From NCBI RefSeq assembly GCF_900170035.1, contig NZ_LT828541.1:116449-180448 (forward strand): a DNA stretch of 64,000 bases, read 5' to 3'. This stretch comes from Desulfamplus magnetovallimortis (GTDB lineage: Bacteria; Desulfobacterota; Desulfobacteria; Desulfobacterales; Desulfobacteraceae). Position 1 is the first letter of the stretch, and each line of letters begins with the position of its first letter. Shown piece by piece: positions 911-21,506 of this stretch. The notes under the pieces are model-generated. The model did not search any database, was not told where the DNA came from, and saw only the letters and a program-made list of their open reading frames with translations. A program made the position numbers and the translations under genes.

Positions 911-1870
911 ATGAAGATCAATCGACGCAATTTTTTCAAGGTCATGGGTGCGACAGCAGTTTCAGGCAGTTCGCTTGCAGCTCTTCCATCCGACCTTACA
1001 GCCTGGGAATCAAAGGCTCCGCCTGATCCCTATGGATGTCTTGTGGATCTCACCAGGTGTGTTGGATGCCGCAAATGCGAAGAGGCATGCAGCCAAGTAA
1101 ACGGCCTTCCGGCACCGGAACGTGCCAATTGCCAATGTACAATCTTTGAGAAGAAAAGAAGACCAGATGACAAGGCATTTACAGTTGTAAACCGCTATTT
1201 TACCGGCAAACTGGACAATTTTGACAAACCCCTTCCAACCTATGCAAAGGTTCAATGCATGCATTGCCAGGATCCTGCCTGTGTATCTGCCTGCATTGTA
1301 GGAGCTCTTACCAAGGATGAAACCGGAAGCGTAAGATACGATGTCTCCAAATGCATTGGTTGCAGATACTGTATGGTGGCCTGCCCCTTTGAAATTCCGG
1401 CCTATGAGTACCATGATCCCATAACTCCAAGGGTAATGAAATGCACCTTCTGTTATGACAGGATTTCCAAGGATGGCGGAGTTCCTGGATGTGCAACCAT
1501 CTGTCCCACAGAAGCCATTACATTTGGCAAAAGAGCCGATCTTTTAAGAGTTGCCCACAAAAGACTTGATGAGAATCCTGGCAAATATATCAACCATGTT
1601 TACGGAGAAAAGGAGGCTGGCGGTACATCGTGGCTATACATATCATCTGTTCCCTTTGAAGATGTAAATCTTCCTGCCCTTCCGGACAACCCCTCTCCAA
1701 AACTTTCCGAAACCATACAACACTCTCTTTTCAGCTATCTCTGGTCGCCCATTGTGCTTTTCAGTACCCTTGGTGCTCTCATGTACAAATCAAACAAGAG
1801 TAATCCAGAAAATTCCAACGGAAAAAGAGGTACTTTAGAAGAAAAAAATATAACCAAAGGAGGTGCCTGA
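911..1870 (+). CDS. HybA-like periplasmic four-cluster ferredoxin subunit (Tat signal, C-terminal anchor)
   Basis: 319 aa. The N-terminus [13 protein letters not shown] is a Tat signal (RRNFF), so the folded protein is exported. Residues ~40-215 hold 16 cysteines in ferredoxin spacing, beginning C50-x2-C53-x2-C56-x3-C60, then [16 protein letters not shown] and CTFCYDR groups, the layout of the four-[4Fe-4S] HybA/DsrO/HmcB family. A hydrophobic segment at ~275-294 would anchor it in the membrane, as in HybA. A strong AAAGGAGG ribosome site precedes the ATG. The stop overlaps the next start (TGATG). In this family the protein wires a membrane quinone subunit to a periplasmic redox partner; here the partner should be the multihaem cytochrome two genes downstream. 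Confidence 0.92.
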
Positions 1871-3072
1871 TGAGCCATAAAGCCGCACCTTTAAACAAAA
1901 AATTCTGGACACCTGGCGTTCTTGTAATGGTGGCATTCATGATTGCAGGCGGTATTGCCATTCTGGCAAGATTCACAGGTGGCATAGGCTATGTTGCAAA
2001 TCTGAGCAACGCCAGACCATGGGGATTGTGGGTGGGAGTTGATGTTGCAACCGGTGTTGCCCTTGCTGCCGGAGGTTTTACCACTGCGGCACTTGCACAT
2101 ATTCTTGGAAAACACTTTTATGAACCTGTGACCCGGCCCGCACTTCTTACAGCACTTCTGGGCTACACATTTGTTGTTCTGGGGCTTCTTGTGGATATTG
2201 GCCGTTCCTGGGCAATCTGGAAGCCAATGTTTAACTGGAATACAAATTCCGTACTCTTTGAAGTTGCCATGTGTGTAATGGTATATCTGCATGTACTCTA
2301 TATTGAATTTATTCCAATTGTTGCAGAGCAGTTCAAGGACAGGGTAAACCTGCCCGGGCCTCTCTCCATTTTCAACGCTCTTGTCAATCTTCTACTGAAA
2401 ATGGCTGATGCCATTCTTGATAAAATAATGTGGATATTTGTAATACTTGGAGTTGTTCTCTCCTGTATGCATCAGTCAAGCCTTGGCTCTCTTATGCTTA
2501 TTGCCCCCACAAAAATTCATCCATTGTGGTACACCCCGATACTCCCTTTGCTGTTTCTCACATCTGCATTTGCTGTTGGATATCCCATGGTGGTTTTTGA
2601 AACAACCATTGTCACATCCTCCTTTAATATTGATTCAGAGATGGAGGTTCTTTCCCCTTTAACAAAAATCACAACATTTCTTCTTGGAATCTACATGTTT
2701 CTTAAAATCGGGGACATGCTCATCAGAGGCACATATGTTTATCTCTTTGATGGGACATATCAGACAAATTCCTTTATTGTGGAGATGCTTATTGGTGTCA
2801 TAATACCCTGGGGAATGCTTCTCTTTGAAAAGGTAAGAAGATCAAGAAAAGCTCTTTTTACAGCAGCCACAATGATTGTTGGAGGTGTTGCTCTTAACCG
2901 AATCAATGTATTCATAGTAGCCTATAAACCACCATTGAGCGAAGGTGGCTATTTTCCTGCACCAGGAGAAATTCTGGTGACTCTGGGTCTTATTGCAACA
3001 CTTATGTTTATCTATAGAGTCATTGTCACCTACCTGCCTGTTCTGCAGGCACCCAAGGAGGTATCCTCATGA
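1870..3072 (+). CDS. HybB/NrfD-family integral membrane quinone-interacting subunit
   Basis: 400 aa, almost entirely hydrophobic, with about ten predicted membrane helices. The N-terminal part, with the RPWGLWVGVD and GRSWAIWKP motifs, resembles HybB, HmcC and other NrfD-type (PF03916) proteins. These carry no haem and exchange electrons between menaquinone and a ferredoxin-like partner. It overlaps the ferredoxin gene by one base and the cytochrome gene by four (ATGA), so translation is coupled and all three probably form one complex. An AAAGGAGGTG ribosome site is present. The order ferredoxin, NrfD-type, multihaem cytochrome recalls the Hmc and Qrc complexes of sulfate reducers, but the cytochrome type differs. 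Confidence 0.92.
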   Translation: MSHKAAPLNKKFWTPGVLVMVAFMIAGGIAILARFTGGIGYVANLSNARPWGLWVGVDVATGVALAAGGFTTAALAHILGKHFYEPVTRPALLTALLGYTFVVLGLLVDIGRSWAIWKPMFNWNTNSVLFEVAMCVMVYLHVLYIEFIPIVAEQFKDRVNLPGPLSIFNALVNLLLKMADAILDKIMWIFVILGVVLSCMHQSSLGSLMLIAPTKIHPLWYTPILPLLFLTSAFAVGYPMVVFETTIVTSSFNIDSEMEVLSPLTKITTFLLGIYMFLKIGDMLIRGTYVYLFDGTYQTNSFIVEMLIGVIIPWGMLLFEKVRRSRKALFTAATMIVGGVALNRINVFIVAYKPPLSEGGYFPAPGEILVTLGLIATLMFIYRVIVTYLPVLQAPKEVSS

Positions 3073-5108
3073 TAAAAAAAATTGTTTACTTCACAGCTCT
3101 TATGCTTGTGACAGCCTTGATGCCAATGCATCTTTCCATCCATAAGGCATCTGCTGCATGGACAGCTCCTGATCAGGAAGATGCAAAAAAAAGGGCAAAA
3201 GAAGTGGTTCCTTTCATCAAAGAATATAAGGATGAACATAAAACCGCCAGAAAAATATCTCTTATGGATGCAGGAGTATCAATTAATGATGTAAAGGATG
3301 TCTATTTTCTTCTGGACAGCCCCATCATAAAAGAGCGTGAAGATCACTACGAACCTGTAAGATTTGCACATAAACGTCATGCAGCTCTTACCAAAGATTG
3401 CAGCAAATGCCACCACCTGCGGCCAAAAGATGAAAAAGAGCTTGAAACAACAAGGTGTTCGGCTTGTCACCAGGACTCTTTCAACTCTGAACATCCTGAA
3501 AGAATCGGCCTTAAAGCTGCCTATCACCAGCAGTGTATTGAGTGCCACAGAACTGAAGCCAAGGGCCCTGTTGACTGTAAAGGATGCCATCTGCAAAATG
3601 TACCTGACCACAAAAATCTTGTGAAACTGCCTGACAATGCAGATGTATTTCAGGTTACGGCAGAGTGTCTCAGATGCCACGATGCCCAGGCAAACGATAT
3701 GCTAACAACAGCCCACTGGCTGTGGCGGGGTCCATCTCCCTACACAACAGGCCACAGAAAAGATATCATGCATGGCAAGGGCACAACTGCCCTTAACAAT
3801 TACTGAATCAGCCCAATCAGCAACGAGGCTCGTTGCACAAGCTGTCATGCAGGATATGGTTGGAAAGATCAGAACTTTGATTTTACAGATAAAGGAAAAA
3901 TGGATTGCCTTGTATGCCATGACACAACCGGCAAATACAAAAAAGACCCTCCGGCAGCAGGAATGCCGGAAAAAGATGTTGATCTGAAACTTGTTGCAGA
4001 AAATGTAGGGCACTCAAGCAGGGCAACCTGCGGTGCATGTCACTTTAATGGTGGCGGAGGTGATGCCATAAAACATGCTGATATGTCAAGGCAGCTTCTT
4101 GAACCAGACAGAAACTGTGATGTCCACATGGGAGGATATGACTTTTCTTGCACCGAGTGCCATAAAACCAGAAATCACAAAATCAGCGGCAGAAGCTCAT
4201 CTGTACCTGTTGCAGAAGGAGAGGTAACCTGCCAGCAGTGCCACTCGGAAGAGCCTCACTACTGCGGAAGCCTTCTGGATCATCACCTGAACAAACATGC
4301 AAAAACCCTTGACTGCAATGTGTGTCACTCACCTGTATTTGCCAAGTGCAAAGCAACCAAGACATGGTGGGACTGGTCAAAAGCCGGAGACAAGAATCGT
4401 AAACCCAAAAAAGACAAATACGGCCAACCTGACTATGACTGGAAAAAAGGGGAGTTCAAGTGGGAAGAGTCTGCTGTTCCATCATATGCATGGGACTCGG
4501 GCTACATGAACCGCGTACTCATAGGAGACAAGGTTAACATCAACGCTGCTGTAATTAATCTGACAGAACCTGTCGGCTCTATCAAAGATCCAGCATCCAA
4601 AATAACACCTTTTAAGATCATGAAAGGTGTGCAGGCAGTTGACACTGACAACAACTACATCATTGTGCCCCATCTCTTCCCCCGCGACAAGGAGGACAAA
4701 ACAGCATACTGGAAAAACCTTGACTGGGAAAAAGCCTTTGAAGACGGCATGAAAAGCGTTGGCCTTGCATACAGCGGTGCATACAGATGGAAGGAGACCT
4801 GGATGTACTGGCGCTTAGAGCATGAAGTTATGCCCGCTGATATGGCTCTTTCATGTGTTCAGTGCCACGACAGTCTGAAAGGTGAAAAGACCTGCAACCG
4901 CTGTCACCAGGACAACCGTGATGTTGATTTTAAAAATATTGCCCACAAGGGAACTGACTTTTCATTCATGAAATCCCAGGGAAGGGATGTGGAACATCTG
5001 ATTGAAAAGACAGATTATATAAACTTCAAGGCCCTTGGCTATAAAGGGGACCCCATCATCCACGGTGGCCGTTTCAAAAAATTGCCTATGGGATATAAAG
5101 ATCAATAA
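3069..5108 (+). CDS. Selenocysteine-containing multihaem cytochrome c: tetrahaem c3-like domain fused to octahaem tetrathionate reductase (OTR) family domain
   Basis: 679 aa if the in-frame TGA at 3804-3806 is read as Sec246; no other stop interrupts the frame. A Sec signal peptide (1-29) indicates a periplasmic protein. Four CXXCH sites (111, 130, 156, 170) form a c3-like domain. Then CXXCH at 200, 256, 280, 321, 361, 388, 416 and 596 match the eight of the OTR family, and one more lies at 609, giving 13 in all. The segment around the TGA reads LNNY-U-ISPISNEARCTSCH; from memory of the family, OTR proteins have Asn-Asn-Phe-Cys-Val at this place, so Sec replaces a conserved Cys. Conserved OTR landmarks follow (CGACHFNGGGGDAIKH, KTWWDWS, the VPHLF region). 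It is translationally coupled to the NrfD-type gene. Substrate is unknown: OTR members reduce tetrathionate, nitrite or hydroxylamine in vitro. The alternative is a nonsense mutation, but 433 intact codons follow. Confidence 0.88.
3807..3844 (+). promoter_or_regulatory. Candidate bacterial SECIS element
   Basis: Thirteen bases after the TGA, GCAACGA (3820-3826) and TCGTTGC (3830-3836) form a perfect 7-bp stem closed by a GGC loop. The first loop base is G and lies 20 bases from the TGA. A lower stem CAGC (3809-3812)/GCTG (3841-3844) can pair across an internal loop. This fits the known bSECIS rules: a small apical loop with G in its first two positions, about 16-37 bases from the UGA. The hairpin lies in coding sequence, as bacterial SECIS elements do. 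Confidence 0.82.
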
Positions 5109-5924: not shown

Positions 5925-7481
5925 ATGAATATCGAATTGGCGCATATAATGCTTTTTGTAAGCTTTTTCTGCTGCATTTCTCTTTGTATCTATAGTTTAA
6001 AATATAAATTCACTCACTTGAATTTTATTTTTTCACTTTTTACAGCAGCAGCCGCTATTTATACACTTGGTTATGCATTTGAGTTGATGAGTGTAAACCT
6101 CGAAACCATGCTTTTCTGGTCTAAAATTCAATATATAGGGATACCTTTTTTGCCAGGATTATTAATAGCCTTTACCTTATGCTATACAGGCTATGAAAAT
6201 AAAGTAACTAATTTTGGGTATTTAATATTTTTTGTTATTCCTGTTATTTCATTTATTGCCAGATGGTCAAATCAGTATCATCATCTTTTTTATAAAAATA
6301 CTGCCGTTTTTAATTCTCATCTGGGGCCTATGTTGAGTTTTGAGCCAGGTATTTTTTATTTCATAAACATTATATATCTCGTCTTTGCACTGAGCTATTG
6401 TACAGTTGTATTTATCAATTACTTTCTAAAAACAGCATTTGTGTATCGAATGCAGTCATTATTAATCATAGCTTCATTGACTATTCAGTGGTTTACCTTG
6501 ATAATTTATTTGAGTGGAACCTGTCCAAAATATTTTGATATCAACCCCTATATGTTTACAATTAGTGCAATCCTTTATGCATTTTCCATCTACCGTTTTT
6601 CACTTTTTAATATTATTCCTGTTGCGCGAGAAGTTATATTTGATGAAATGAATGATGCAATAATTATTATTAATCCTGAGATGCAACTCATTGATTTTAA
6701 TAAACGCTGTGCTTCATTATTTAATGAAATTAACGATAAGGCTATAGGAAAAAATATTGAGCAAATTTTTGTTTCTCGACCAAAAATAATAAATAGTATT
6801 AATAATATTTCTGTTGCAGAGGTTGAGGTCATCATAGAAAATGGTACTGACAGGCTCTTTTTAGAACTATCATTCAAATCTATAAAAACAGTAAATAAAA
6901 GCAGTGCTTGCACAATTATTACATTTCATAATATTACTGAAAAGCGGATTTTAATGCAAAAGCTTGAAAAATTAGCTACTGTCGATCCTTTGACCGGAGT
7001 GATTAACAGGCGACAGCTTGAGATTCAGGCTGATATTGAAATGAAACGTTCTATCAGAATGAATACCCCACTTTCTGTTTTGATGTTTGATATTGATCAT
7101 TTCAAAAATGTAAACGATACTTGGGGGCATCAGTGCGGGGATCAGGTATTGAAGCAATTCGTTGTAACTATTTTGGCTAATATACGTGAAATAGACTGCT
7201 TCGGAAGATTCGGAGGTGAAGAATTTATAATGATAATGCCAGAATCAAACCGTAACGTTGCAACAGCCATTGCTGAAAGGCTGCGCAAGATCGTTGAAAA
7301 AACGACTCTGAATATAGACGGAAATATGACCAGCATAACCGTTAGTATAGGTATCTCAGGAAGATGGAATAATGAAAACATTTCAATGGATTCACTTATT
7401 AAATATGCGGATAATGCTTTGTATGCTGCAAAGCAGAATGGACGCAACAGAGTTGAGATTGCTGAATTAACCCTGATGTAA
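5925..7481 (+). CDS. Membrane diguanylate cyclase (7TM-PAS-GGDEF)
   Basis: 518 aa. Residues 1-225 hold about seven hydrophobic helices of the histidine-kinase N-terminal 7TM type. Residues ~230-345 are PAS-like, with the IIINPEMQLIDFNK pattern. Residues ~350-515 form a GGDEF domain with GGEEF at 430-434 and an allosteric I-site REID five residues before it, so it should make cyclic di-GMP and be product-inhibited. The gene is AT-rich compared with its neighbours. It stands alone, with its own leader, at the start of a signalling island. The ligand of the 7TM sensor is unknown. Confidence 0.9.
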   Translation: MNIELAHIMLFVSFFCCISLCIYSLKYKFTHLNFIFSLFTAAAAIYTLGYAFELMSVNLETMLFWSKIQYIGIPFLPGLLIAFTLCYTGYENKVTNFGYLIFFVIPVISFIARWSNQYHHLFYKNTAVFNSHLGPMLSFEPGIFYFINIIYLVFALSYCTVVFINYFLKTAFVYRMQSLLIIASLTIQWFTLIIYLSGTCPKYFDINPYMFTISAILYAFSIYRFSLFNIIPVAREVIFDEMNDAIIIINPEMQLIDFNKRCASLFNEINDKAIGKNIEQIFVSRPKIINSINNISVAEVEVIIENGTDRLFLELSFKSIKTVNKSSACTIITFHNITEKRILMQKLEKLATVDPLTGVINRRQLEIQADIEMKRSIRMNTPLSVLMFDIDHFKNVNDTWGHQCGDQVLKQFVVTILANIREIDCFGRFGGEEFIMIMPESNRNVATAIAERLRKIVEKTTLNIDGNMTSITVSIGISGRWNNENISMDSLIKYADNALYAAKQNGRNRVEIAELTLM

Positions 7482-7752
7482 AAAAAAACATCGTGATGAA
7501 AATTGCAATAAAGATTCATATAATACAATACTTCTGACAGTTTTTATGAGCACTTGTTTTTATTGAACCAAAACACTTAGCCATCCCATATTTCAATAAA
7601 ACTTCTGGCATACATACTTGAAACAGGGCATAATTAAGAGCATTTAAAAAACCCTTCTTATCTGATTCTATCTAAAGGCAAATATGTAAAGAGAATGAAA
7701 GCAGGAGCAGGCTTTAATATGATGCACTGGCTCCCTTTTTTGGAGAATTATT
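7482..7752. other. Intergenic region, nothing recognised
   Basis: 271 bases of AT-rich unique sequence. No repeat family member, clear hairpin terminator or promoter pair was identified, apart from a TTTTTTGGAG ribosome site before 7753. Confidence 0.4.
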
Positions 7753-10700
7753 ATGAAACAGAAAAATAAAGTCCGGCTTGGCCTGATGGCTCCTTTTTCC
7801 GGCATAGTTCAGCTCTATGGGAATGAGATATCCAATGCAGGAATCATCGCCTGTAATGAAGTTAATGAAGCGGGGGGAGTTCTTGGCCGTGAACTTGAAT
7901 TGATTATACTTGATGATGGCAGCATGCCTGAGAGGGCCGTGCCTGCGGCAAAACGACTGATCAATGAATTCAAATGTTCCGCCATCATAGGCAACCTTCT
8001 TTCAAATTCAAGAATAGCAGTGTCAACACTTGTGTCAGAGCCATTGAAAATTCCCTATCTTAACTTCTCGTTTTATGAGGGCAGCATATTAAGTGAATAC
8101 TTTTTCAGTTTTTCAGCACTTCCCAACCAGCAAATTGACAAAATGATTCCCTTTATGCAAAAAAAGTTCGGCCCGAAAATGTTCTTTGCCGGCAATAATT
8201 ATGAGTGGCCAATAGGCTCCATTGATGCAGGGAAAAAATCACTTCTGCAACATTCAGGTGAAATAGTTGGAGAAGAGTTTCTGCCCATTGGTGTCTCAAT
8301 GTCAGAAATCGAAGCACTTCTTCTGAAGGTCGCCCGTTCAGGAGCTGATGTTTTTGTCCCCTATTTTGCAGGAACCGATCAGATCCACCTGCTGAATACA
8401 TTTACTGAACAGGGACTTAAAGAGAGAATGGCCGTTGTTATGGGACATTATGATGAGGCAATGGTCAGCCTCCTTTCTCCAGAGGTTCGTGAAGGTTTTT
8501 ACTCTTCCAACACCTATTTTATGTCCATAGATAGTGACATAAACCGCTCATACCTTGCCCGTCTTGCAAAACTTGAGGAGATAAAGGGTATATGGCCTGC
8601 CGGCAATGGTTTTCTGACCAACTTTGGAGAAGGAACTTATATTTGCGTAAAAGCATTTGCCAAAGCAGTTAATCAGATTGAATCTCTTGACTCTGATGCT
8701 GTTGCAATGGCTCTTGAAACCATTGAAGTTGAAGGCCCCCAGGGTGTTGTATCAATGGACCCTGCCACACATCATGCAACGGTAAACACATACCTGTCTA
8801 AATGTAATGCCGAGGGGGTATTTCAAATTATAGAGTCCTTTGGACGAATCCCGCCTGTGATACCTGAACGCTACAAAAAAGATATAACAGTCAGTATGGT
8901 GAAAAGTTCTACTCTCGGAAAAACAACTGACAGGAGTACTCCTGGGGAAGCAACTGACGGAAGCAGTTTTGGGGAAGCAACTGACGGAAGCACTCTTGGG
9001 GAAACAACTGTCAGAGGAACCATTGGGCAAGCAGTTGACAGGGAGAATATTGGGGAAGCAACTTCAGACTCTTTTAAGGAGAAAAGAAGCTCAAGTGAAG
9101 AGCAGGACAAGGGTTTTAAGAAAATATGGAATAAAATGAATGACAATTTCTCCAGCATCACCTCCCGAATCCTTGAAACTGCCAATGTTGTAATCATTGC
9201 TGCAAACAGGGACGGCATCATCCTTGAGGCCAACCGTGACGCATATCGTCAGTTCGGGTATGTTCCGGATGAATTACCAGGTTTATCCGTTCACCTGCTT
9301 CTCCCCCCCAACCATCGTAAAAAGCATGTTGATCTTTTCAATCAATTTGCGGAAGGAACTGTCACGGAGCTTCCCATGGGCAGACGGGGCAGAGTTCAAG
9401 GATACAGAAAAGATGGTACACTCTTTCCTGCGGAGGCGAGCATTGCAAAATTTTTCCATGAAGATAGGTGGATATTTGTCGTTACTCTCCGAGACATAAG
9501 TCAACGCAAAAAAGACGAAGAGACACTAATATGGATTGCCACACATGACTCCCTTACAAAACTGCCCAACCGTACTTTGATAAAGGATCGCCTGAGAAAC
9601 GCATTACTTCGCACCAAGAAAAACGAAGCAGGAAGTGTACAAACCAGCGGCAACAACGTTGGAGTGCTATTTATTGACTGTGACGAATTTAAGTTAATCA
9701 ACGATACTTATGGTCATAATGTAGGTGATGAACTTCTTTTAAGCATTGCCGACCGGCTTATAACAGCAACCCGTCCCGGTGATACTGTGGGAAGGCTTGG
9801 CGGAGACGAATTTGTTGTATTATGTGAAAACATAAGTACGGAACAGACACTCATAGCAATTGCCGAGCGAATCAACGAAAGGCTCCGTTCTCCGTTTGAC
9901 CTGATGCATTCCAATACGCTGAAAGTTCATATCAGTGCAAGTATCGGTATTGCTATAGGACACGGCTCCACCCATTCCCCTGATGATATGCTCAGAAATG
10001 CTGATGCTGCCATGTATCTTGTCAAAGAGGGTGGAAAAGATGGCTGGCGTCTCTTTTCAGATAAGATTTACGAAAACCTGACACGTAAATTGAGCATTAT
10101 CAACGGTCTTAAAACAGCCATTGAGCAAAACGAATTTTCCCTTGTCTATCAACCGATAGTTGGAGCCAACAGCCCCATAATAAAAGGTGCGGAGTCTCTT
10201 CTTCGCTGGAACAGAAAAGATGGCCCTGTTTCACCTGCTGATTTTATTCCTGTGGCAGAATCCAGCGGAGCCATCATCGCTATTGGACAATGGGTTTTCC
10301 GTGAAGCCTGCAAAATAGTTGCCCGTATCCAGAGTGAATTTGTCAACACCACCCCGCCCTACACATCCATTAATGTCTCAACCCGTCAACTTGATGATGA
10401 GGGTGTTGTTGAACAGTTCAAGGATATTCTCAATGAAACCGGTGCAAAACCTGAAAATATCGTGATTGAAATAACTGAAACATCCCTTATGGTTGATGTT
10501 AACAGAAACATAAAGGTTCTCAACGAACTTGCATCTCTCGGGATGAGAATTGCTGTTGACGACTTTGGAACCGGATACTCATCACTGTTGCAACTCATCC
10601 GAATGCCGGTCTGCATTATAAAAATTGATCGTGAATTTATTGATGGCCTTGACAAAAAATCTGAAAGCCGCGCCATAACCTCATCTGTAATAAAAATGGC

Positions 10701-11301
10701 AAAAATCATGAACAAAAAAACCATAGCAGAAGGCGTTGAAAATGAAGCAGAGCTGTTTGAACTTCAGGCTCAAGGGTGCGATATGATACAAGGATACTAT
10801 TTTTATCGTCCAATGCCCGCAGATGAGTACCTCACTTTGCTTAACCGTAATACCATGCTTCCGAAGAGCACCAGCGCACCAGGAGTCTATGTTGCTATTT
10901 ATCTGAGTAAAGCATCTGATACAATTAGAGATGATGAAATTCAACAGATTTTACATGCTTCACGCAAAACTAATTCAGAGCTTGGAATTACGGGATTTCT
11001 TATTTTCAATAAAGGGTACTTTCTTCAGTTGCTTGAAGGCAGACAGGATTCTGTGGAAAGACTTTTAAAGACAATAACAGATGACCGGCGCCATGATGAT
11101 GTCAAAATAGTTCTTCGTACCTTTAATGAACAACGCCTTTTTGCAGACTGGACCATGGGGTTCTGGAACATGAAAGAAACCGGTTCAGATATTGATTTTT
11201 CAACATGGCAAAAAAACACCTTCAGCCTCCTGGAAATATCCAATGACGCAAAACTGTGTTATGCTTTTTTTGAGGCCATATCTTCAAAAAATTTAATATA
11301 A
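7753..11301 (+). CDS. Cytosolic solute-receptor / PAS / GGDEF / EAL / BLUF cyclic-di-GMP protein
   Basis: 1182 aa, no signal peptide or membrane helix. Residues ~5-375 form a type I periplasmic-binding fold of the amide/branched-chain amino-acid receptor class (LGLMAPFSG..., AGGVLGRELELI), retained in the cytosol as in AmiC. Residues 387-440 are a six-unit, 9-residue repeat linker. PAS spans ~470-590; GGDEF has RLGGDEF at ~682-687 with I-site RPGD; EAL (~780-1030) has the AESLLRW motif and the DDFGTGYSS loop. The C-terminal ~105 residues are a BLUF domain with flavin-site residues Tyr1050, Asn1074, Gln1092, Trp1133 and Met1135 all in place. It should therefore couple a small ligand and blue light to cyclic di-GMP turnover. 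The net direction (synthesis or breakdown) cannot be read from sequence. Confidence 0.88.
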   Translation: MKQKNKVRLGLMAPFSGIVQLYGNEISNAGIIACNEVNEAGGVLGRELELIILDDGSMPERAVPAAKRLINEFKCSAIIGNLLSNSRIAVSTLVSEPLKIPYLNFSFYEGSILSEYFFSFSALPNQQIDKMIPFMQKKFGPKMFFAGNNYEWPIGSIDAGKKSLLQHSGEIVGEEFLPIGVSMSEIEALLLKVARSGADVFVPYFAGTDQIHLLNTFTEQGLKERMAVVMGHYDEAMVSLLSPEVREGFYSSNTYFMSIDSDINRSYLARLAKLEEIKGIWPAGNGFLTNFGEGTYICVKAFAKAVNQIESLDSDAVAMALETIEVEGPQGVVSMDPATHHATVNTYLSKCNAEGVFQIIESFGRIPPVIPERYKKDITVSMVKSSTLGKTTDRSTPGEATDGSSFGEATDGSTLGETTVRGTIGQAVDRENIGEATSDSFKEKRSSSEEQDKGFKKIWNKMNDNFSSITSRILETANVVIIAANRDGIILEANRDAYRQFGYVPDELPGLSVHLLLPPNHRKKHVDLFNQFAEGTVTELPMGRRGRVQGYRKDGTLFPAEASIAKFFHEDRWIFVVTLRDISQRKKDEETLIWIATHDSLTKLPNRTLIKDRLRNALLRTKKNEAGSVQTSGNNVGVLFIDCDEFKLINDTYGHNVGDELLLSIADRLITATRPGDTVGRLGGDEFVVLCENISTEQTLIAIAERINERLRSPFDLMHSNTLKVHISASIGIAIGHGSTHSPDDMLRNADAAMYLVKEGGKDGWRLFSDKIYENLTRKLSIINGLKTAIEQNEFSLVYQPIVGANSPIIKGAESLLRWNRKDGPVSPADFIPVAESSGAIIAIGQWVFREACKIVARIQSEFVNTTPPYTSINVSTRQLDDEGVVEQFKDILNETGAKPENIVIEITETSLMVDVNRNIKVLNELASLGMRIAVDDFGTGYSSLLQLIRMPVCIIKIDREFIDGLDKKSESRAITSSVIKMAKIMNKKTIAEGVENEAELFELQAQGCDMIQGYYFYRPMPADEYLTLLNRNTMLPKSTSAPGVYVAIYLSKASDTIRDDEIQQILHASRKTNSELGITGFLIFNKGYFLQLLEGRQDSVERLLKTITDDRRHDDVKIVLRTFNEQRLFADWTMGFWNMKETGSDIDFSTWQKNTFSLLEISNDAKLCYAFFEAISSKNLI
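8911..9072 (+). repeat. In-frame 27-bp minisatellite (6 units) in the receptor-PAS linker
   Basis: Six units of 27 bp encode nonapeptides of the type TPGEATDGS. Units 2 and 3 are nearly identical and the others are more diverged. It lies between the receptor and PAS domains, where length variation would be tolerated. Confidence 0.85.
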
Positions 11302-11349
11302 TGGCCATGTCGGACATACACCATTTACGCTACAAAATCTAAACATTGA

Positions 11350-11596
11350 TGGCTTTTTCGGTAGTTATTTAATTTGTCTGAATCAGGATAACCAGGATGG
11401 CCAGGATGTTCAGGATAAATAATCCTGCTTTATCCTGTTAATCTTGGGTATCCTGATTCAGACAATATTCACAAGGCTCAAAAGATCATAGGTGCCGTCT
11501 TTGAGGCTCAAAAGATCATAAGTGCTGTCTTTGAGGCTCAAAAAGATCATAAGTGCTGTCTTTGAGGCTCAAAAAGATCATATGTGTCATCTTTGA
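11350..11596. mobile_element. Family A element A3 with four tandem right ends
   Basis: The core arms TCTGAATCAGG and CCTGATTCAGACA are present, but the left terminus is degraded. At the right, the terminal segment beginning GGCTCAAAAGATCATA is repeated four times: 11475-11504, 11505-11534, 11535-11565 and 11566-11596 (30, 30, 31, 31 bp). The array ends 7 bases before the start codon of the downstream kinase. Confidence 0.8.
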
Positions 11597-11603
11597 AGTT
11601 ATA

Positions 11604-14600
11604 ATGGAGGCTCTTTTGCAACCACCCCCAACTCCTGAAAACGAAAAAGAACGTATTGAGGCATTACGCAATCTTAAAATCATAGACACTCCTGAAGAGG
11701 AGCGCTTTGATCGCCTCACACGTCTTGCCAAACACCATTTTAAAGTACCCATTGTCCTCATAAGTCTGGTGGACACCAACCGTCAATGGTTTAAGTCATG
11801 TCAGGGGTTAAGCGTAAGAGAAACCCCACGGGAGATATCATTCTGCGGCCATGCCATTCTCACGGATGAACCTCTGATCATTCCCGATGCCCTTGCTGAT
11901 GAGCGTTTTTTTGACAACCCGCTTGTGACCCAGGCACCATTCATACGGTTTTATGCAGGAGCACCACTGCACGCACCGGAAGGCTATAGGGTGGGCACGC
12001 TCTGCCTTATTGACAATAAACCCCGTGGATTTTCTCCGGAAGAGGCAGCCCTTCTCATTGATATTGCAAGAATTGTTGACGCAGAGCTGGAACGGACTCA
12101 CCTTCTGAAGGCCAACAAAGAGGCTGTTGAAAACCGCAAACGCCTTGAGATGAGTGAGGCCCGCACAACTGCCATACTCAATACCGTAATTGACGGTATT
12201 GTCACCATCAACCACCATGGTATTATTGAGGTTTTTAACCCTGCAGCCCAGCGACTTTTTGGCTACCAAAGTAACGAAGTGATCGGTCATAATGTAAAGA
12301 TTCTGATGCCCCAACCCTTTCACGGGGCACATGACGGCTACCTGCACAACTATCTTGAATCGGGTAATGCCAGAATTATAGGCATCGGACGGGAGGTCAT
12401 AGGAAGGCGCAAGGATGGCACCACCTTTCCCATGGAGCTTGCGGTGAGCGAGATGCACTCCGAGGGGAAACGCTACTTTACCGGCATTGTGCGGGACATT
12501 AGCCAGAGAAAAATTGACGAGCAGACGCTGATTCAAGCAAAAAAAGAGGCAGAACTTGCCAATAAATCCAAGAGTAACTTTCTGGCCAACATGAGCCACG
12601 AAATCCGAACACCCATGAATGCCATAATAGGTATGAGCCATCTTGTACTCAAGACAGAACTCACCAATAAGCAGCAGGATTATATTACTAAAATCCAATC
12701 CTCTGCCCATGCTCTTCTCGGTATCATTAACGACATTCTCGACTTTTCCAAAATTGAGGCAGGCAAGCTTTCCATGGAGTCCATTGAGTTCCGACTGGAC
12801 GAAGTGCTCAACCACCTGGCAACCATCATAAGCATAAAGGCCGAAGAGAAGGGACTTGAGCTGCTCTTTTCACGATCTCCGGCCCTTCCCAATGTACTGA
12901 CAGGAGATCCCCTCCGTCTGGGGCAGATTCTGGTCAATTTGACCAATAATGCCATCAAGTTCACTGAAACCGGCGAAGTTGTGGTAACAGCAGAGCCGGC
13001 AAGGGAGGAAAAGGATAGAAAAGAGCTTCGTTTTATTGTTAAAGATACCGGCATCGGAATGACAAAAGAGCAATCTGCAAAGCTCTTCCAGGCCTTTTCC
13101 CAGGCAGATACAACAACCACACGCAAATATGGAGGCACCGGCCTGGGGCTTTCCATATGCAAGCGGCTGGTGGAGATGATGGATGGCACCATAGGGGTTA
13201 AAAGTAGTGTTGGTGAAGGGAGCACTTTTACTTTTACCGCATGGTTTGGTCATAAAAAGAGCCTGGGAAAAACTGACAAGCTTCTCTCCTCCAGCCTAAA
13301 AGGTATGCGTGTGCTGGTGGTTGACGACAATCAGACATCCCGTACTATCCTAAAAGAGATTATGGAATCCATGTCATTTGTGGTCAAAACGGTTAATTCC
13401 GGACCGGAAGCCATAGATGAGCTGGAGCTTGACAGCCGCAATAATTTAGAACATGGCTACAAAATAGTCCTTATTGACTGGAAAATGCCCAGAATGACAG
13501 GTGTTGAAGCCATTCGCCGCATCCGAAAGTCACCATTAATACCTTTACCACCCAAGCTTATTCTCGTTACTGCCTACGGACGGGAGGAGATCATTGAAGA
13601 GGCCACATCCGCCGGAATTGACGGTATCATACTAAAACCTGTCAATCCGTCCCTGGTGCTTGATACCATCATGAACACCTTTGCCGAAGACGGGGAACAG
13701 ATAAGAGATGTTGCCCGGCCTCAACCTATTATACGGGATGTGGATGCCATCAAGGGTATGCTTGGAGCAAAGGCTCTGCTGGTTGAAGATAACCATATAA
13801 ACCAGCAGATAGCTGTGGAGCTTCTCGAAGAGCACGGCATTGATGTAACAGTTGCCAGCAATGGTGAAGAGGCAATTGAGATGATTAAATCCAACAGCTT
13901 TGAAATTGTGCTCATGGATATCCAGATGCCGGTTATGGACGGTCTTACAGCAACGAGAAATATTCGCAGGCTCCAGGGTTCCCATTACAGAGAACTCCCC
14001 ATCCTTGCCATGACCGCCCATGCAATGGCCGGGGATCGACAAAAGAGTCTTGATGCCGGAATGAATGATCACCTGACCAAGCCCATTGACCCTGACGCCC
14101 TTTTTGATGCCCTGGTTCGATGGATACCGAGGCGTGACAGAAAGTTACCTTTACCTGACAGACTGGAACAGAAAACAGAACCCTCTGTTGATCTGCCCGA
14201 AAGCATTCCAGGCATTGATTTGACAATAGGATTAAAGCAGGTTAGGGGAAACAGAAAACTTTTTGCCAAACTGCTCAGGGAGTTCAATGAGGATTACAGG
14301 GATGTCACTACCCGCATAAAAAATCTCATGAAAAAAAAGGATATTGCATCTGTACAGAGACTCGTTCACACTATAAAGGGAGTATCCGCATCAATTGGAG
14401 CTGCTCAGTTAAGTGTGGCTGCTGCTGATATTGAGAACATTCTCAAAAATGGGAAGCATGATGACCACCACAATTTTGATCTTCTCTTTACTTACTTTGA
14501 AGACAACATAACACAGGTTATGACAGGACTCTCTTTGCTTAGCCTAACCAAAGCCTCTGACATTCATGAAAAAAAAGCCGGATTTGAAGAGCCTCTGAAC

Positions 14601-14858
14601 GATACTCTTACCGATACATTGGAAGATATTGATACCATTTTGTTGCAGCAGCTTTTCAATGAGCTTGCAGGCTTTCTCGATGCAGGCCATGCAACAAGAT
14701 CATCTTCAACTCTGGAGCAAATTTGCACGCTCGGTGGCCATACCATTGCTTCCCAATTTGACGGGATCAAGGTACTTATTGATGATTTTGAATACGAAGA
14801 GGCTCTGGAAGCTCTCCGTAAACTCTCAACCACTTTGAATATTACATTGGAAAATTAG
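11604..14858 (+). CDS. GAF-PAS hybrid histidine kinase with two receivers and Hpt
   Basis: 1084 aa from the ATG at 11604. An in-frame GTG at 11553 lies inside the tandem repeat and is not credible as the start. The order is: GAF (~10-165; its TPENEKERIEALR opening is typical of soluble GAF kinases); PAS (~185-305); HisKA with His332 in NMSHEIRTPMNA; HATPase with GTGLGLS; receiver 1 with Asp625 (IDWKMP); receiver 2 with Asp772 (LMDIQMP); and Hpt with His922 (VHTIKGVSASIG). There is no membrane segment, so it senses inside the cell. It can run a complete phosphorelay internally. Its output partner may be one of the response regulators downstream. Confidence 0.93.
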   Translation: MEALLQPPPTPENEKERIEALRNLKIIDTPEEERFDRLTRLAKHHFKVPIVLISLVDTNRQWFKSCQGLSVRETPREISFCGHAILTDEPLIIPDALADERFFDNPLVTQAPFIRFYAGAPLHAPEGYRVGTLCLIDNKPRGFSPEEAALLIDIARIVDAELERTHLLKANKEAVENRKRLEMSEARTTAILNTVIDGIVTINHHGIIEVFNPAAQRLFGYQSNEVIGHNVKILMPQPFHGAHDGYLHNYLESGNARIIGIGREVIGRRKDGTTFPMELAVSEMHSEGKRYFTGIVRDISQRKIDEQTLIQAKKEAELANKSKSNFLANMSHEIRTPMNAIIGMSHLVLKTELTNKQQDYITKIQSSAHALLGIINDILDFSKIEAGKLSMESIEFRLDEVLNHLATIISIKAEEKGLELLFSRSPALPNVLTGDPLRLGQILVNLTNNAIKFTETGEVVVTAEPAREEKDRKELRFIVKDTGIGMTKEQSAKLFQAFSQADTTTTRKYGGTGLGLSICKRLVEMMDGTIGVKSSVGEGSTFTFTAWFGHKKSLGKTDKLLSSSLKGMRVLVVDDNQTSRTILKEIMESMSFVVKTVNSGPEAIDELELDSRNNLEHGYKIVLIDWKMPRMTGVEAIRRIRKSPLIPLPPKLILVTAYGREEIIEEATSAGIDGIILKPVNPSLVLDTIMNTFAEDGEQIRDVARPQPIIRDVDAIKGMLGAKALLVEDNHINQQIAVELLEEHGIDVTVASNGEEAIEMIKSNSFEIVLMDIQMPVMDGLTATRNIRRLQGSHYRELPILAMTAHAMAGDRQKSLDAGMNDHLTKPIDPDALFDALVRWIPRRDRKLPLPDRLEQKTEPSVDLPESIPGIDLTIGLKQVRGNRKLFAKLLREFNEDYRDVTTRIKNLMKKKDIASVQRLVHTIKGVSASIGAAQLSVAAADIENILKNGKHDDHHNFDLLFTYFEDNITQVMTGLSLLSLTKASDIHEKKAGFEEPLNDTLTDTLEDIDTILLQQLFNELAGFLDAGHATRSSSTLEQICTLGGHTIASQFDGIKVLIDDFEYEEALEALRKLSTTLNITLEN

Positions 14859-15384
14859 TATATTCTCAAATTTGACACCTATGTTTTTTTGGGATCTTTC
14901 ACTTGTCAGTTTACACTTTTTTTGAACCATGATTTTCATGATTAAGGGATTACCTTGATTTTTAATGGCATCTTTCATTTATCGGTTTACACTTTTTGAG
15001 CCTTATTCTTTTGTCTGAATCACGGATTAAACGGATTAAAAGATTACACAGATTGAAAAAATGGCATCCTTCATATCATCCCAAAAGTAGTTTACACTTT
15101 TTTTGAGGAAAGCCCCCGAAAACCGGAGATTCGCTTCAGAAAATGTAAAGCAGCAAATGAAACATGCCGAAAAAATCTGTGTAATCAGCGTAATCTGTGG
15201 CAATCCGTGATTCAGGCAATTAAAGAAAAGTGTAAACTACTTTTAAGCTGATATGAAGGATGGCTTTTTAATCGTGTTAATCCTTAAATCCTTTAATCAT
15301 GGTTCAGAATTTTTCGAAAAGTGTAAACTAATTTTGAGTTGAGATTAAGGATTTCTTTTTTTTAATGAAACTTACGAAGGTAAT
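14859..15384. repeat. Concentric palindromic repeat block
   Basis: No gene. The block is built as nested inverted repeats. Outer arms: sequence with TTTGAACCATGATT (from ~14919) against AATCATGGTTCAGAATTTTT (from ~15295). Inner arms: TCTGAATCACGGATTAA (from ~15011) against CAATCCGTGATTCAGGCAA (from ~15201), with CACAGATT/AATCTGTG inside. The motif GTTTACACTTTT occurs three times forward (~14910, ~14980, ~15090) and AAAAGTGTAAAC twice inverted (~15231, ~15319). It is related to family A in using TCTGAATCA arms. Confidence 0.65.
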
Positions 15385-18300
15385 ATGAAACTGAGAACCA
15401 TAATTTTAATACTGTTCATATTGGCATTCCTCTCCACGGCAACAATATCCATTGCAATTTCCGGAGAGGAGCAACAGGGCAGCTATAACATGGATGCCTC
15501 AACAAAACCACTTGTCGTTGCCCTTAGAAACGATCTGCCTCCAATGTTTTTCCTCAATGTTGAAGGCCAGCCTGTGGGCATGTATGTGGATGTCTGGAAA
15601 TTATGGAGTAAGAAAACAGGGCATAAAATTCGTTTTTATATGGCAGCATGGAAAGATATACCTGAAAGCCTGAAAAACGGTTCTTCTGATATTATAGGGT
15701 TGCTTTTATACTCAAAGGAGAGGAGGGAATGGATTGAGTTTTCCCAGCCTCTTTATGATACCAGTGCCCGTATTTTTTATCCGAAAACTATGCCTGACAA
15801 TCTTAACATAAACGACCTCAAAGGAAAGAAGTTGGGCGTTATAAGCGGCATTGCCAATGAACAGGATATTCGGAAAAGTTATCCTGATATTGAGCTTATC
15901 TTCTTTCCCACGGTAGAAGATATGATTCGTGGTGCTCTGGATGGCAAAGTGAGTGCCTTTATCAATTCCCCGGACTCTTCATTGACAGTTCTTGGGCGTA
16001 TGGGGTTATCGGGCAGGTTTCAGATATCCGAGGAGGTACTTTTTCCAAGGACCCTTCACGCAGGGGTTCTCAAAGGCAATAAAGATCTTCTTGCACTTGT
16101 TGACAGAGGATTTAATTCCATTTCAAATCAGGAACTTGCTGACATTGAAGCACGATGGATTACTGACCCCTCAAAGCGGCATTACAGATCAGCAGATAAT
16201 ATCCGACTCACCTCTGCTGAGGAAAGATGGATCAGACATAATAAAAAGGTTAAAGTCTCTATGCCGGATGGATTTCCGCCAATGATGTTTATGGAAGGCA
16301 ACATTTTCAAGGGTATGGTTCCAGAGTACCTTGAAATCTTTAACGAAAAGACAGGCTTGCAGTTCGAGTTTACAAAGGCTTGTCTGAGTGAACTGCCAGA
16401 ACAGATCGAAAAACGGCAAACAGATATCTTCCCATCATTCACGGAGCTTACTCCCACCCCTTTTGTAAATATGAGTGTTCCCTGTTTTTCATTATCATGG
16501 GTAATTGTAAACAGGACAAAAAGTGCTTTTGTAGCAGATCTGAAAGATTTGAAAGGTATGACGATTCTGGTTGTCAAAGATATTCCTCTTTATAAGCGCA
16601 TAATAAATGACTACCCTGAAATCAACATCCAGACTGCAGAAAAGCCGTTTGATGCACTTAAAGCTGTTTCATCAGGCAAGGCAGATGCCTTTGTGGGGGC
16701 ACTTCAAATTGTCGGTTATATGATTCAAAAACATGATCTTGCCAATCTGAAGATAGCAGGAACTGTTAAATATGAAGATTTTAAGTTCATGTTTGCTGCC
16801 AGAAGTGACTATCCTGAACTTACAACTATTTTGAACAAGGCAATTAATTCGATTTCTCAGCAGGAGCATGATGAAATTTTTCATAAATGGATGCCTGTCA
16901 GTTTTGACTACTCTGCTGACTGGTCAATTTTTATAAAGTGGGCAGTGATATTTGTCATTTTTTTCATTGCCCTTATGGGGATAACTCTTTTCTGGAATAG
17001 ACGCCTTGCTAAACAGATCAATGAACGAAGACGCACAGAGGACGAGTTAACAATAAGTCTGGAAAAATATAAAATCCTTTTTGACTCATTTCCCATCGGA
17101 GTAAGCGTTACCGACGAAAAGGGCAATCTGGTGGAAGTGAATCGTGAATCCCAACGGTTGCTGGGCATTTCCAGGGAAAAGCACAATGAAAGAAAAATTG
17201 ATGGCAATGAGTGGGAAATCATTCGTCCCGACGGCTCTGTCATGCCACCGGAAGAGTATGCAGCTGTCCGTGCAATAAAAACACAGCAGTTAGTAAAAAA
17301 TGCTGTAATGGGCATTGTAAAAGGAGATCAGGAGACACTATGGCTCGATGTTCATGCAACACCTGTTCCTCTTGAAGGTTATGGAGTGGTAATTACCTAT
17401 CATGACATCACCGATCGTAAACATGCTGAAAAAGAGCGGGCAGAAAACCAGAAGCAATTGCAAAGAAATATTCAAATTACCCAGACAAGGCTTTTTCTTG
17501 TTGAATATGCCAGAACCCACAAATTTGACAAACTGCTTTCAAAGGTTCTTGATCAGGTGGGAATGCTGGTTGAAAGTCCGATCGGATTCTATCACTTTGT
17601 GGAAGAGGATCAGCAGACTGTTTTCCTTCAGCAGTGGTCAAGCCGTACCCTTCAAGAGTTTTGCAAAATGGGGGCAAAAGGGATACACTACCCTGTTAAC
17701 AAGGCAGGTGTCTGGGTTGACTGCGTCCATCAGAAAAAACCGGTTGTGCATAATGACTATGCATCCCTGCCCCACAAAAAAGGCCTGCCTGAAGGTCATG
17801 CTGAGGTAATACGTGAACTTGTTGTTCCTGTCATTCGTCAGGGTAAAGTATTGGCCATTCTTGGAGTTGGAAATAAAAAGGACAAATACACAGAACAGGA
17901 TGTTGAAACAGTCTCCTACCTTGCCGATATCACATGGCAAATTGTAGAACAAAAAAGAACTGAAGAGCTGCTTAAAGGGGTACTTGACGGCTCGTTAATA
18001 GGCATTATGGCATTTAGGTCTGTACGGGACAGCAATGGAATCATATCTGATTTTAAGTGCCTGCTGGGAAATCGTGCGGCATGCAAAATGGTTGGATATT
18101 CCCAGGAGGTGCTGAAAGGCCGTCGTTTACTGGAACTTATGCCGGGCAATAAAATGGCAGGCTTGTTTGACAAATATGTCAATGTTGTCAACACAGGAAT
18201 CCCCCTTCAGTTGGAGCTGCACTATGGTTATGAAAATTTAGACCAGTGGTTTTCCATTTCTGCTGTGGCACTTGATGATGGTTTTCTTGTAACTTTCAGC

Positions 18301-20181: not shown

Positions 20182-20217
20182 TTTCAAACATTAAAACCAT
20201 CGAACCACAACTTTTCA

Positions 20218-20287
20218 TTATCTATTGCACTTGTCTGAATAAGGCGCTATTTATCAGACACAAAAGAGAGCAGATGTCGAATTTGAG
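20218..20287. mobile_element. Family A remnant, copy A4 (core deleted)
   Basis: Only ~70 bp remain: TTGTCTGAATAAGGCG, ATTTATCAGACAC and the right terminus ATGTCGAATTTGAG. The left terminus and the AGGAT-rich core are missing. An ATG in the right terminus opens the reading frame of the next gene. Confidence 0.65.
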
Positions 20288-20363
20288 TAAACCTTCATGG
20301 CCGAATTCAACTGCCACCCCCGACCATGGTAAGGGTATTTTCACGGTAAAAAAGGGAATCTCC

Positions 20364-21473
20364 ATGTTTAACAAAACCCCGGGTATTTTAATAGTTGATG
20401 ATATGCCATCCAATTTGCAGGTGTTAGGGCAAATACTTAAAAGTCAGAAGTATATTATTATGGTTGCGTCAAACGGTCAGACAGCACTTAATATGGTTGT
20501 TGACAGAAAACCTGATCTTATACTGTTGGATATCATGATGCCGGAAATGGATGGATTTGAGGTGTGCAGGAGATTAAAAAGTTCTGATGCAACAAAATCT
20601 ATTCCAATTATTTTTTTAACTGCCAAAACTGACTCTGAGGATGTTTTAAAAGGCTTTGAAATGGGGGCAGTTGATTATATAACAAAGCCGTTCAACGCTG
20701 CTGAGCTGTTATCACGGGTCAGAACACACATTGAACTCAGGATGCTTCAAACAAACCTTGAAAGTGCTGTGGATAGCCGCACCAAAGAGTTGCATTCTGC
20801 ATTGGATAAATTAAAAATAATGCACAGTACTTTGCAGGGCACCTATCTTGAAATCATAAACCGTCTTGCCCTTGCTGCTGAATATCGTGACAATGAAACA
20901 GGACAGCATGTTTTAAGAATGAGCCATTTTTCATCGCTTCTTGCCAGGGCTGCCGGTTTTGATGAGAACTATTGCCATAACCTGCTGCACGCAAGTTCCA
21001 TGCATGATGTGGGTAAAATCGGCATACCAGATTCAATATTGTTGAAACCAGGCAAACTGACCAGTGAGGAGTTTGAGATAATGAAAAGCCACACAATCAT
21101 AGGAGGGGAACTGCTGTCAGGTATTGATTCAGATGTATGCCATCTGGCCAGGGCCATTGCATTGACCCACCATGAAAAATGGAATGGTAAAGGATATCCA
21201 AATGCACTTTCAGGTAAAAAGATTCCCATGGAAGGGCGAATTGTTGCTGTTGCAGATGTGTTTGATGCATTGACATCAGTTCGACCGTACAAAAAAGCAT
21301 GGGAGACAGATGATGCCATTGCACTGCTCAAAAAAGAAAAAGGTGAACATTTTGACCCATACCTTGTTGACCTGTTTATTGATAATCTTCCAGGAATACT
21401 TGAGATAAAACATGAGTTTGTGGAAGATGAGGAACTGACAGACACTGCAGAACCAGAAGGCGATCAAAGTTAA
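20364..21473 (+). CDS. HD-GYP response regulator (cyclic-di-GMP phosphodiesterase)
   Basis: 369 aa from the ATG at 20364. The same frame opens at 20274 inside the A4 remnant, but the extra 30 residues are not receiver-like. Receiver at ~6-120 (GILIVDDMPSN, LLDIMMPEMDG), a short helix, then an HD-GYP domain with His214-Asp215 (HDVGKIGIPD) and GKGYP near 274-278. HD-GYP proteins hydrolyse cyclic di-GMP. It follows the double-SBP kinase and precedes a receiver-GGDEF protein, giving a phosphorylation-controlled pair of opposite activities. Confidence 0.93.
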   Translation: MFNKTPGILIVDDMPSNLQVLGQILKSQKYIIMVASNGQTALNMVVDRKPDLILLDIMMPEMDGFEVCRRLKSSDATKSIPIIFLTAKTDSEDVLKGFEMGAVDYITKPFNAAELLSRVRTHIELRMLQTNLESAVDSRTKELHSALDKLKIMHSTLQGTYLEIINRLALAAEYRDNETGQHVLRMSHFSSLLARAAGFDENYCHNLLHASSMHDVGKIGIPDSILLKPGKLTSEEFEIMKSHTIIGGELLSGIDSDVCHLARAIALTHHEKWNGKGYPNALSGKKIPMEGRIVAVADVFDALTSVRPYKKAWETDDAIALLKKEKGEHFDPYLVDLFIDNLPGILEIKHEFVEDEELTDTAEPEGDQS

Positions 21474-21506
21474 ACCTGAATGCTAAAAAAACGAAGGTGA
21501 AAAATA

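Follow-up and report, generated by a model that had tools for sequence, protein, structure and literature searches.

A predicted 13-haem selenocysteine cytochrome of the octahaem tetrathionate reductase family in Desulfamplus magnetovallimortis and its cysteine-containing relatives

The octahaem tetrathionate reductase (OTR) of Shewanella is a soluble periplasmic cytochrome which receives electrons from STC/CymA (PMC4484225, PMC6449678) and reduces tetrathionate, nitrite and hydroxylamine (PMC4484225), while an OTR from Beggiatoaceae reduces tetrathionate and nitrite, the tetrathionate activity being significantly higher (PMC6449678). In print, the catalytic role in OTR is ascribed to the second haem, which has a conserved lysine ligand (PMC11024163). 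A cytochrome of this family with a predicted selenocysteine (Sec) is encoded by the frame 3069-5108 of a 64,000-nucleotide stretch of the Desulfamplus magnetovallimortis genome (contig NZ_LT828541.1, positions 116,449 to 180,448), which was analysed as a whole and is referred to below as the window. The predicted protein shares the OTR domain with SO4144 of Shewanella oneidensis (PDB 1SP3) and can be aligned to it at the position of Cys64, at Lys153 and in the motif of the second haem; SO4144, however, has Cys instead of Sec and lacks the class III (c3-type) domain. To our knowledge, no NrfD/HybA operon is associated with SO4144.

Selenocysteine has been proposed in multihaem cytochromes before. 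The Geobacter cytochrome GSU2937+GSU2936 was put forward as a selenoprotein in 2007 (PMC1914089), and a Sec cytochrome c family appears in a 2022 review (PMC9312934). The Geobacter Sec cytochromes resemble the window protein in being multihaem c-type proteins with a TGA proposed to encode Sec (PMC1914089, PMC13188914), but GSU2937+GSU2936 has five CxxCH motifs and a Sec-bearing C-terminal part for which no relatives are known (PMC1914089), and it is not of the OTR type; presumably it forms one family with ExtKL (NF040886, PMC13188914). A further case is WP_331457571.1, which, like the window protein, belongs to TIGR04315 and contains one Sec, as far as a single table row of a 2026 review permits the comparison (PMC13188914); that table gives the TIGR04315 Sec protein as GenBank-annotated, with one Sec and without a motif. 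Hence the expectation of an earlier note on this DNA that many haems and one Sec would make a new kind of redox centre was anticipated by the Geobacter proposal, and Sec in the OTR family had already been tabulated, though without analysis.

The selenocysteine codon and the architecture of the cytochrome

The frame 3069-5108 encodes a single TIGR04315 cytochrome (483.7 bits, curated cut-off 375), and its sole interruption is the TGA at 3804-3806, i.e. codon 246, so that the earlier description of one broken frame with one OTR-type protein on both sides of the TGA holds. The 13 haem c motifs announced there were also counted: four CxxCH lie in the c3 domain, whereas the nine found from residue 193 onwards are the eight expected for OTR and one more near the C-terminus. 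Codon 246 is directly preceded by the NN-aromatic context of the family, and the TGA indeed stands in place of the Cys of its NN-aromatic-Cys motif. In the alignment to the 1SP3 chain, codon 246 corresponds to Cys64, Ala254 to Pro72, CTSCH (residues 256-260) to Cys74-His78 and Lys335 to Lys153, which by its residue number we take to be the haem ligand; the residue encoded by the TGA would therefore sit ten positions ahead of the catalytic-haem motif. The OTR domain matches 1SP3 both by sequence and by the fold of the predicted model. Since this model (mean predicted local distance difference test score, pLDDT, 68.9; below 50 at residues 220-238 and 322-391) is too uncertain near residue 246 for a haem distance to be read from it, only the fold match to 1SP3 was used.

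The exchange of Cys and TGA at codon 246, which the earlier note had proposed to look for, is widespread. A scan of genome contigs yielded 72 relatives, 68 of which span the codon: 33 have TGA, 34 have TGC/TGT and one alignment is spurious. When 389 genomes of the class were searched, matches were obtained in 270 and exceeded the cut-off in 221; a hand count of the 150 matches listed gave at least 23 with one TGA and none with another stop, and in all 23 fetched TGA rows the TGA occupies the codon equivalent to 246. The combined set of 227 OTR cores, which includes the gene of the window itself (L125) and some near-copies and omits loci with a core match under about 280 residues, contains 56 cores with TGA, 162 with Cys, seven with Leu, one with Ala and one with Thr at this position; TAA or TAG was found in none. 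One of the omitted loci, L038 (Desulfobacula sp.), also has TGA, but its match stops early, and in L035 (Desulfotignum sp.) a second in-frame stop lies within the match; both may be due to a frameshift or an assembly error. Both forms are found in named strains, the TGA form in Desulfocicer vacuolatum DSM 3385 (L019) and the Cys form in Desulfospira joergensenii DSM 10085 (L013).

Downstream of the TGA, the eight haem motifs are kept in all 28 full-length fused Sec genes without any other stop, and the median rate of nonsynonymous substitution (dN) is 0.11 there versus 0.14 upstream; the ratio to the synonymous rate (dS) is unusable because dS is saturated in 25 of 27 comparisons. The equivalent of Lys335 is Lys in 56/56 Sec cores and in 170/171 of the others. 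Among the 120 database matches listed of 4591, at least six of 399-405 amino acids start at or near an internal ATG. Gene callers thus cut Sec genes into fragments, and in the annotations of sulfate reducers the enzyme readily escapes notice.

The genome to which the window belongs possesses all four genes of the selenocysteine machinery, each above its cut-off: selA (517.8 bits), selB (361.5), tRNA-Sec (selC, 76.6, anticodon tca) and selD (370.4), as the earlier note would have it. The selD gene (L089 1522-1575, C7) likewise contains an in-frame TGA, which by eye is followed by a stretch resembling a hairpin, and the SelD protein is probably itself a selenoprotein.

The SECIS-type hairpin and the switching between Sec and Cys

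The hairpin reported in the earlier note, of the type known as selenocysteine insertion sequence (SECIS), was found as described: the 7-bp stem (3820-3826/3830-3836) starts 13 nt and its GGC loop (3827-3829) 20 nt past the TGA. According to the bacterial rule given in PMC13188914, a SECIS has a stem of 4-16 bp, a loop of 3-9 nt placed 16-37 nt from the UGA, an energy of at most -7.5 kcal/mol and a G within the first two places of the loop, often followed by G or U. With 7 bp, GGC, 20 nt and -11.4 kcal/mol (fold of 3801-3845), the hairpin of the window lies within these limits. The stability of the fold is unexceptional (z -1.43; 20 of 200 shuffles equally stable), and the hairpin is rated above chance because of its conservation rather than its energy. 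In 56/56 Sec cores the stem consists of seven Watson-Crick pairs and carries a G[G/T] loop at a distance of 20 or 24 nt from the TGA, and a stem of at least 7 bp occurs at this place in just one of the 58 Cys genes with available DNA (L121). At 20 nt there are 30 GGC and 4 GTC hairpins in fused enzymes and 13 GGC hairpins in stand-alone ones; the nine hairpins at 24 nt have AGGT or AGTT and all belong to other stand-alone proteins. The possible lower stem also mentioned in the earlier note was rejected as a conserved feature, since all four of its pairs can form in 20 of the 29 distinct TGA sequences of the fused type and in none of the 22 of the stand-alone type.

The constraint is visible in codon usage as well. 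The 28 full-length fused Sec genes have 209 degenerate codons for invariant residues, only six of which are frozen to one codon, and five of these six are hairpin codons (251, 252, 253, 255 and 256). Of all the synonymous codings of the peptide SNEARC, 2/1152 form a Watson-Crick-perfect stem, or 16/1152 if G-U pairs are allowed; for SNWPRC none of 576 codings gives a Watson-Crick-perfect stem in the same register.

The hairpin likely dictated a change of the protein beside the haem motif, namely the loss of Pro254. Of the 162 Cys cores, 124 have Pro at residue 254, but none of the 56 Sec cores does; there the residue is Ala in 43, Cys in nine and Ser in four. Where the loop starts at 20 nt, its second base is also the one with which codon 254 begins, and Pro would place a C there although the rule favours G or U; in the 24-nt class codon 254 lies within the stem. 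The association is partly phylogenetic; on the branches starred in the tree, nine independent pairs gave on average 6.3 concordant, 0 opposite and 2.7 without difference (median p 0.031, range 0.008-0.125), so that it is supported on the tree, though not overwhelmingly.

That tree is a quick one, for which the 227 cores were thinned by identity to 115 and the hairpin columns removed, and its support comes from the Shimodaira-Hasegawa-like approximate likelihood ratio test (SH-aLRT) only. On it the Sec label changes at least 13 times and nine of these changes are forced by starred branches, which become less reliable if the alignment contains long rows (three long rows were flagged). Sec occurs in fused enzymes, in stand-alone enzymes with the identical hairpin, and in a further stand-alone group and L057 with a different hairpin. 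Related genes thus appear to have switched between Sec and Cys forms many times. The hairpin shared by fused and stand-alone enzymes was rejected as proof of common descent: SNEARC leaves only the two perfect codings mentioned above, so identical hairpins do not imply common ancestry and convergence is plausible. In L121 (genome G180) the Cys64 position is TGT and the GGC hairpin behind it is intact; this is likely the fossil of a Sec gene which reverted to Cys, although it comes from a single draft genome and a base error is possible. L112 and L118 have Cys together with Ala254 and a damaged hairpin.

Both types also occur within single genomes. The genome of the window has a second, stand-alone OTR of the Cys type (TGT; L124, C7:191728-193110), and genome G074 (L126) has two stand-alone OTRs, one of the Cys type and one of the Sec type, a short distance apart. 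Among ten genomes of the genus (three of high quality) an OTR was found in three, and the Sec OTR in the genome of the window only.

Operon, gene fusions and neighbourhood

The cytochrome gene is the last of an operon of three (Table 1). The product of the first gene (911-1870) matches PRK10882.1/HybA with 282.7 bits (cut-off 263) and contains Fer4_11, and the product of the second (1870-3072) matches PF03916 with 80.9 bits and NF008133 with 337.2 bits, below the cut-off of 450. Both upstream genes stop at TGA; TGA is therefore not generally recoded, and a general change of the genetic code was rejected.

Both an Fe-S and an NrfD neighbour accompany 34 of the 35 fused loci with at least 2600 bp of upstream DNA (40 fused loci in total; the exception is L138), and neither was found in any of the 34 stand-alone loci with as much upstream DNA. 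For three stand-alone loci with less upstream sequence (L051, L107 and L116), Fe-S or NrfD matches were obtained, but these are remote (27-32% identity). Among the matches listed in the search of 389 genomes, at least 15 (hand count) have an open frame 1064-1159 amino acids long; four of these long-frame relatives were fetched, and in all four NrfD and c3-OTR form one protein of 1087-1091 amino acids (Pfam for two of them). P0104 (1043 amino acids) resembles these fusions.

Given the operon and the NrfD fusions, a membrane complex that is fed by quinol, like NrfABCD and MccACD, is likely, and the enzyme is likely a quinol-linked periplasmic reductase. NrfABCD and MccACD likewise combine a multihaem catalytic subunit with an Fe-S subunit and an NrfD membrane subunit (PMC8076601); their catalytic subunits, however, are NrfA with five haems or MccA with eight, not c3-OTR, and no Sec is mentioned in the available text of that paper, from which the words octaheme and OTR are also absent. 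The Hmc/Nhc complexes of sulfate reducers share HmcB-like and HmcC-like partners, and the c3 domain is similar to the C-terminus of HmcA, but here OTR takes the place of the HmcA core. All three proteins score below the Hmc cut-offs (HmcA 69.2 of 400, HmcB 336.7 of 420 and HmcC 272.7 of 550 bits), and the operon is related to the Hmc membrane module without being an Hmc member.

Past the operon, the window at 5925-22508 encodes signalling proteins, namely a GGDEF protein, a Peripla_BP-GGDEF-EAL-BLUF protein, a hybrid histidine kinase, and HD and GGDEF response regulators.

Table 1. Features of the operon, of the Sec cytochrome and of related or neighbouring genes (coordinates of the window unless a locus is named).
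Feature	Position	Strand	Remark
HybA/HmcB-like Fe-S protein gene	911..1870	+	first of operon; RRNFFK twin-arginine-type start (by eye); TGA stop
NrfD-like (HybB/HmcC-like) membrane subunit gene	1870..3072	+	few-base overlaps with both neighbours; TGA stop
13-haem c3-OTR cytochrome gene	3069..5108	+	in-frame TGA predicted to be read as Sec; 679 amino acids
Class III (c3-type) tetrahaem domain	3342..3590	+	residues 92-174; PF02085, 56.2 bits
OTR domain	3645..4874	+	residues 193-602; best TIGR04315 stretch
TGA, predicted Sec codon 246	3804..3806	+	site equivalent to Cys64 of the 1SP3 chain
SECIS-type hairpin	3820..3836	+	7-bp stem, GGC loop 3827-3829; Cys256 codon of haem motif within 3' arm
CTSCH, motif of second OTR haem	3834..3848	+	residues 256-260; catalytic in OTR per PMC11024163
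Lys335	4071..4073	+	aligned to Lys153 of 1SP3; predicted ligand of catalytic haem
NrfD-c3-OTR fusion gene	L141 955-4224	-	
NrfD-c3-OTR fusion gene	L143 1691-4954	+	
NrfD-c3-OTR fusion gene	L142 888-4160	+	
NrfD-c3-OTR fusion gene	L144 1631-4900	+	
Nickel-dependent hydrogenase large subunit gene	29392-31029	-	PF00374, 718 bits

Proposed function and alternative explanations

The proposal for the function builds on what was observed: the pairing of TGA with Cys, a hairpin of the SECIS type, the presence of the sel genes, the three-gene operon, the fusions of NrfD to the cytochrome in relatives, and Sec and Cys forms scattered across the tree. With reasonable, though far from complete, confidence we regard the product of 3069-5108 as a predicted 13-haem periplasmic Sec enzyme, the selenol of which would attack the substrate while the electrons probably come from membrane quinol. 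The UGA would be decoded by SelB and Sec-tRNA, and the Fe-S protein, the NrfD-like protein and the cytochrome would form one complex. Its NrfD subunit would oxidise quinol, and by way of the Fe-S subunit and the c3 domain the electrons might reach the eight haems of OTR and finally the one with the Lys ligand. There, the selenolate could open the S-S bond of tetrathionate via a Se-thiosulfonate adduct. Sec246 may have a redox or ligand role, and the occurrence of Sec at the Cys64 position probably marks this residue as reactive.

The model for the selenium step would be TsdA, in which an active-site Cys at the haem handles tetrathionate through a Cys S-thiosulfonate (PMC4423706). The likeness is one of analogy and homology is not claimed, for TsdA is a dihaem protein and its Cys ligates the haem. 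The wider claim, that sulfate reducers have a quinol-linked reductase in which a selenol partners a Lys-ligated c haem, and that Sec and Cys were switched on nine or more occasions, the codons of the haem motif containing hairpins of two designs, is held with less assurance and could fall either way.

Several observations weigh against the proposal. Leu, Ala or Thr occupies the Cys64 position in 9/227 cores; a thiol or selenol is therefore not required throughout the family. These residues (Leu in seven, Ala and Thr in one each) belong to the fused relatives P0106, P0108, P0109, P0110, P0111, P0112, P0117, P0119 and P0120, which may form a sub-family acting on a different substrate. The orientation of Cys64 towards the catalytic haem is our assumption, and the predicted model is poor at just that place. 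The energy limit of -7.5 kcal/mol is reached by 36/58 Cys genes as well as by 56/56 Sec genes. In 77 genomes, chosen non-randomly from the loci in hand and classed by locus (G055 of the Cys class and G401 of the Sec class are apparently the same assembly), selA exceeded its cut-off in 69, namely in 41/46 Sec owners and 28/31 Cys owners. Being equally common in Cys owners, selA was rejected as a discriminator of the two forms: it makes Sec possible without accounting for why Sec is used. Moreover, five of the 46 Sec owners (G298, G103, G208, G147 and the genome of L010) have no selA above the cut-off, and two of these are rather complete (G147 92%, G103 90%); draft gaps may explain such cases.

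The substrate is the weakest step of the proposal, and the alternative that survives best is directed at it. Sec would be inserted, but the enzyme would mainly be a reductase of nitrite, hydroxylamine or NO, or would even work oxidatively, and Sec would tune proton delivery or guard against over-oxidation. The chemistry of NrfA is not known to need Cys or Sec, and an exchange of thiol for selenol should fit S-S chemistry better. Nitrite reductases do share the Lys-ligated haem (PMC8840924) and the operon layout is similar to that of NrfABCD (PMC8076601), but the stronger tetrathionate activity of the Beggiatoaceae OTR (PMC6449678) speaks for the sulfur compound. We consider this alternative possible, yet clearly the less probable of the two.

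Much less credible is the view that the UGA acts mostly as a stop, a c3 protein of 245 amino acids being the main product, the hairpin regulating termination and the remaining 402 amino acids being translated from the ATG at 3900. This ATG is preceded by an AAGGA-like stretch (by eye), and the fragments of 399-405 amino acids from gene callers have the matching size. However, codon 278 is ATG in only 14 of 28 Sec genes, and the 402-residue remainder would have neither a signal peptide nor the catalytic haem motif (256-260); besides, the TGA is paired with Cys in relatives and is never replaced by TAA or TAG among the 227 cores. Finally, the idea that the TGA is an error of sequencing, or a recent nonsense mutation of a gene in decay, can practically be dismissed, even if the relatives are mostly draft metagenome assemblies: the case named in the earlier note, a TGA in one strain with decayed haem motifs, is contradicted by TGA at the same codon in many separate genomes (56/227 cores, including Desulfocicer vacuolatum DSM 3385) and by eight intact motifs with no further stop in 28/28 genes.

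The reading as a quinol-linked Sec enzyme acting on tetrathionate is thus preferred. Among the papers examined, PMC13188914 was the only one found to join Sec with TIGR04315, and within this set no account was found of the identity of the Sec with Cys64 next to the catalytic-haem motif, of the 13-haem NrfD-linked form, of repeated switching with two hairpin designs, of a fossil hairpin or of a Pro-to-Ala footprint.

It has long been asked why certain enzymes retain selenium. For the enzymes described here, the NrfD fusions suggest that quinol is the source of electrons, and the Sec (L019) and Cys (L013) forms of the 13-haem enzyme in named strains offer natural pairs in which selenium and sulfur can be compared at one haem. 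If the proposal is true, the family would represent an experiment of nature in which selenium and sulfur are swapped next to a haem.

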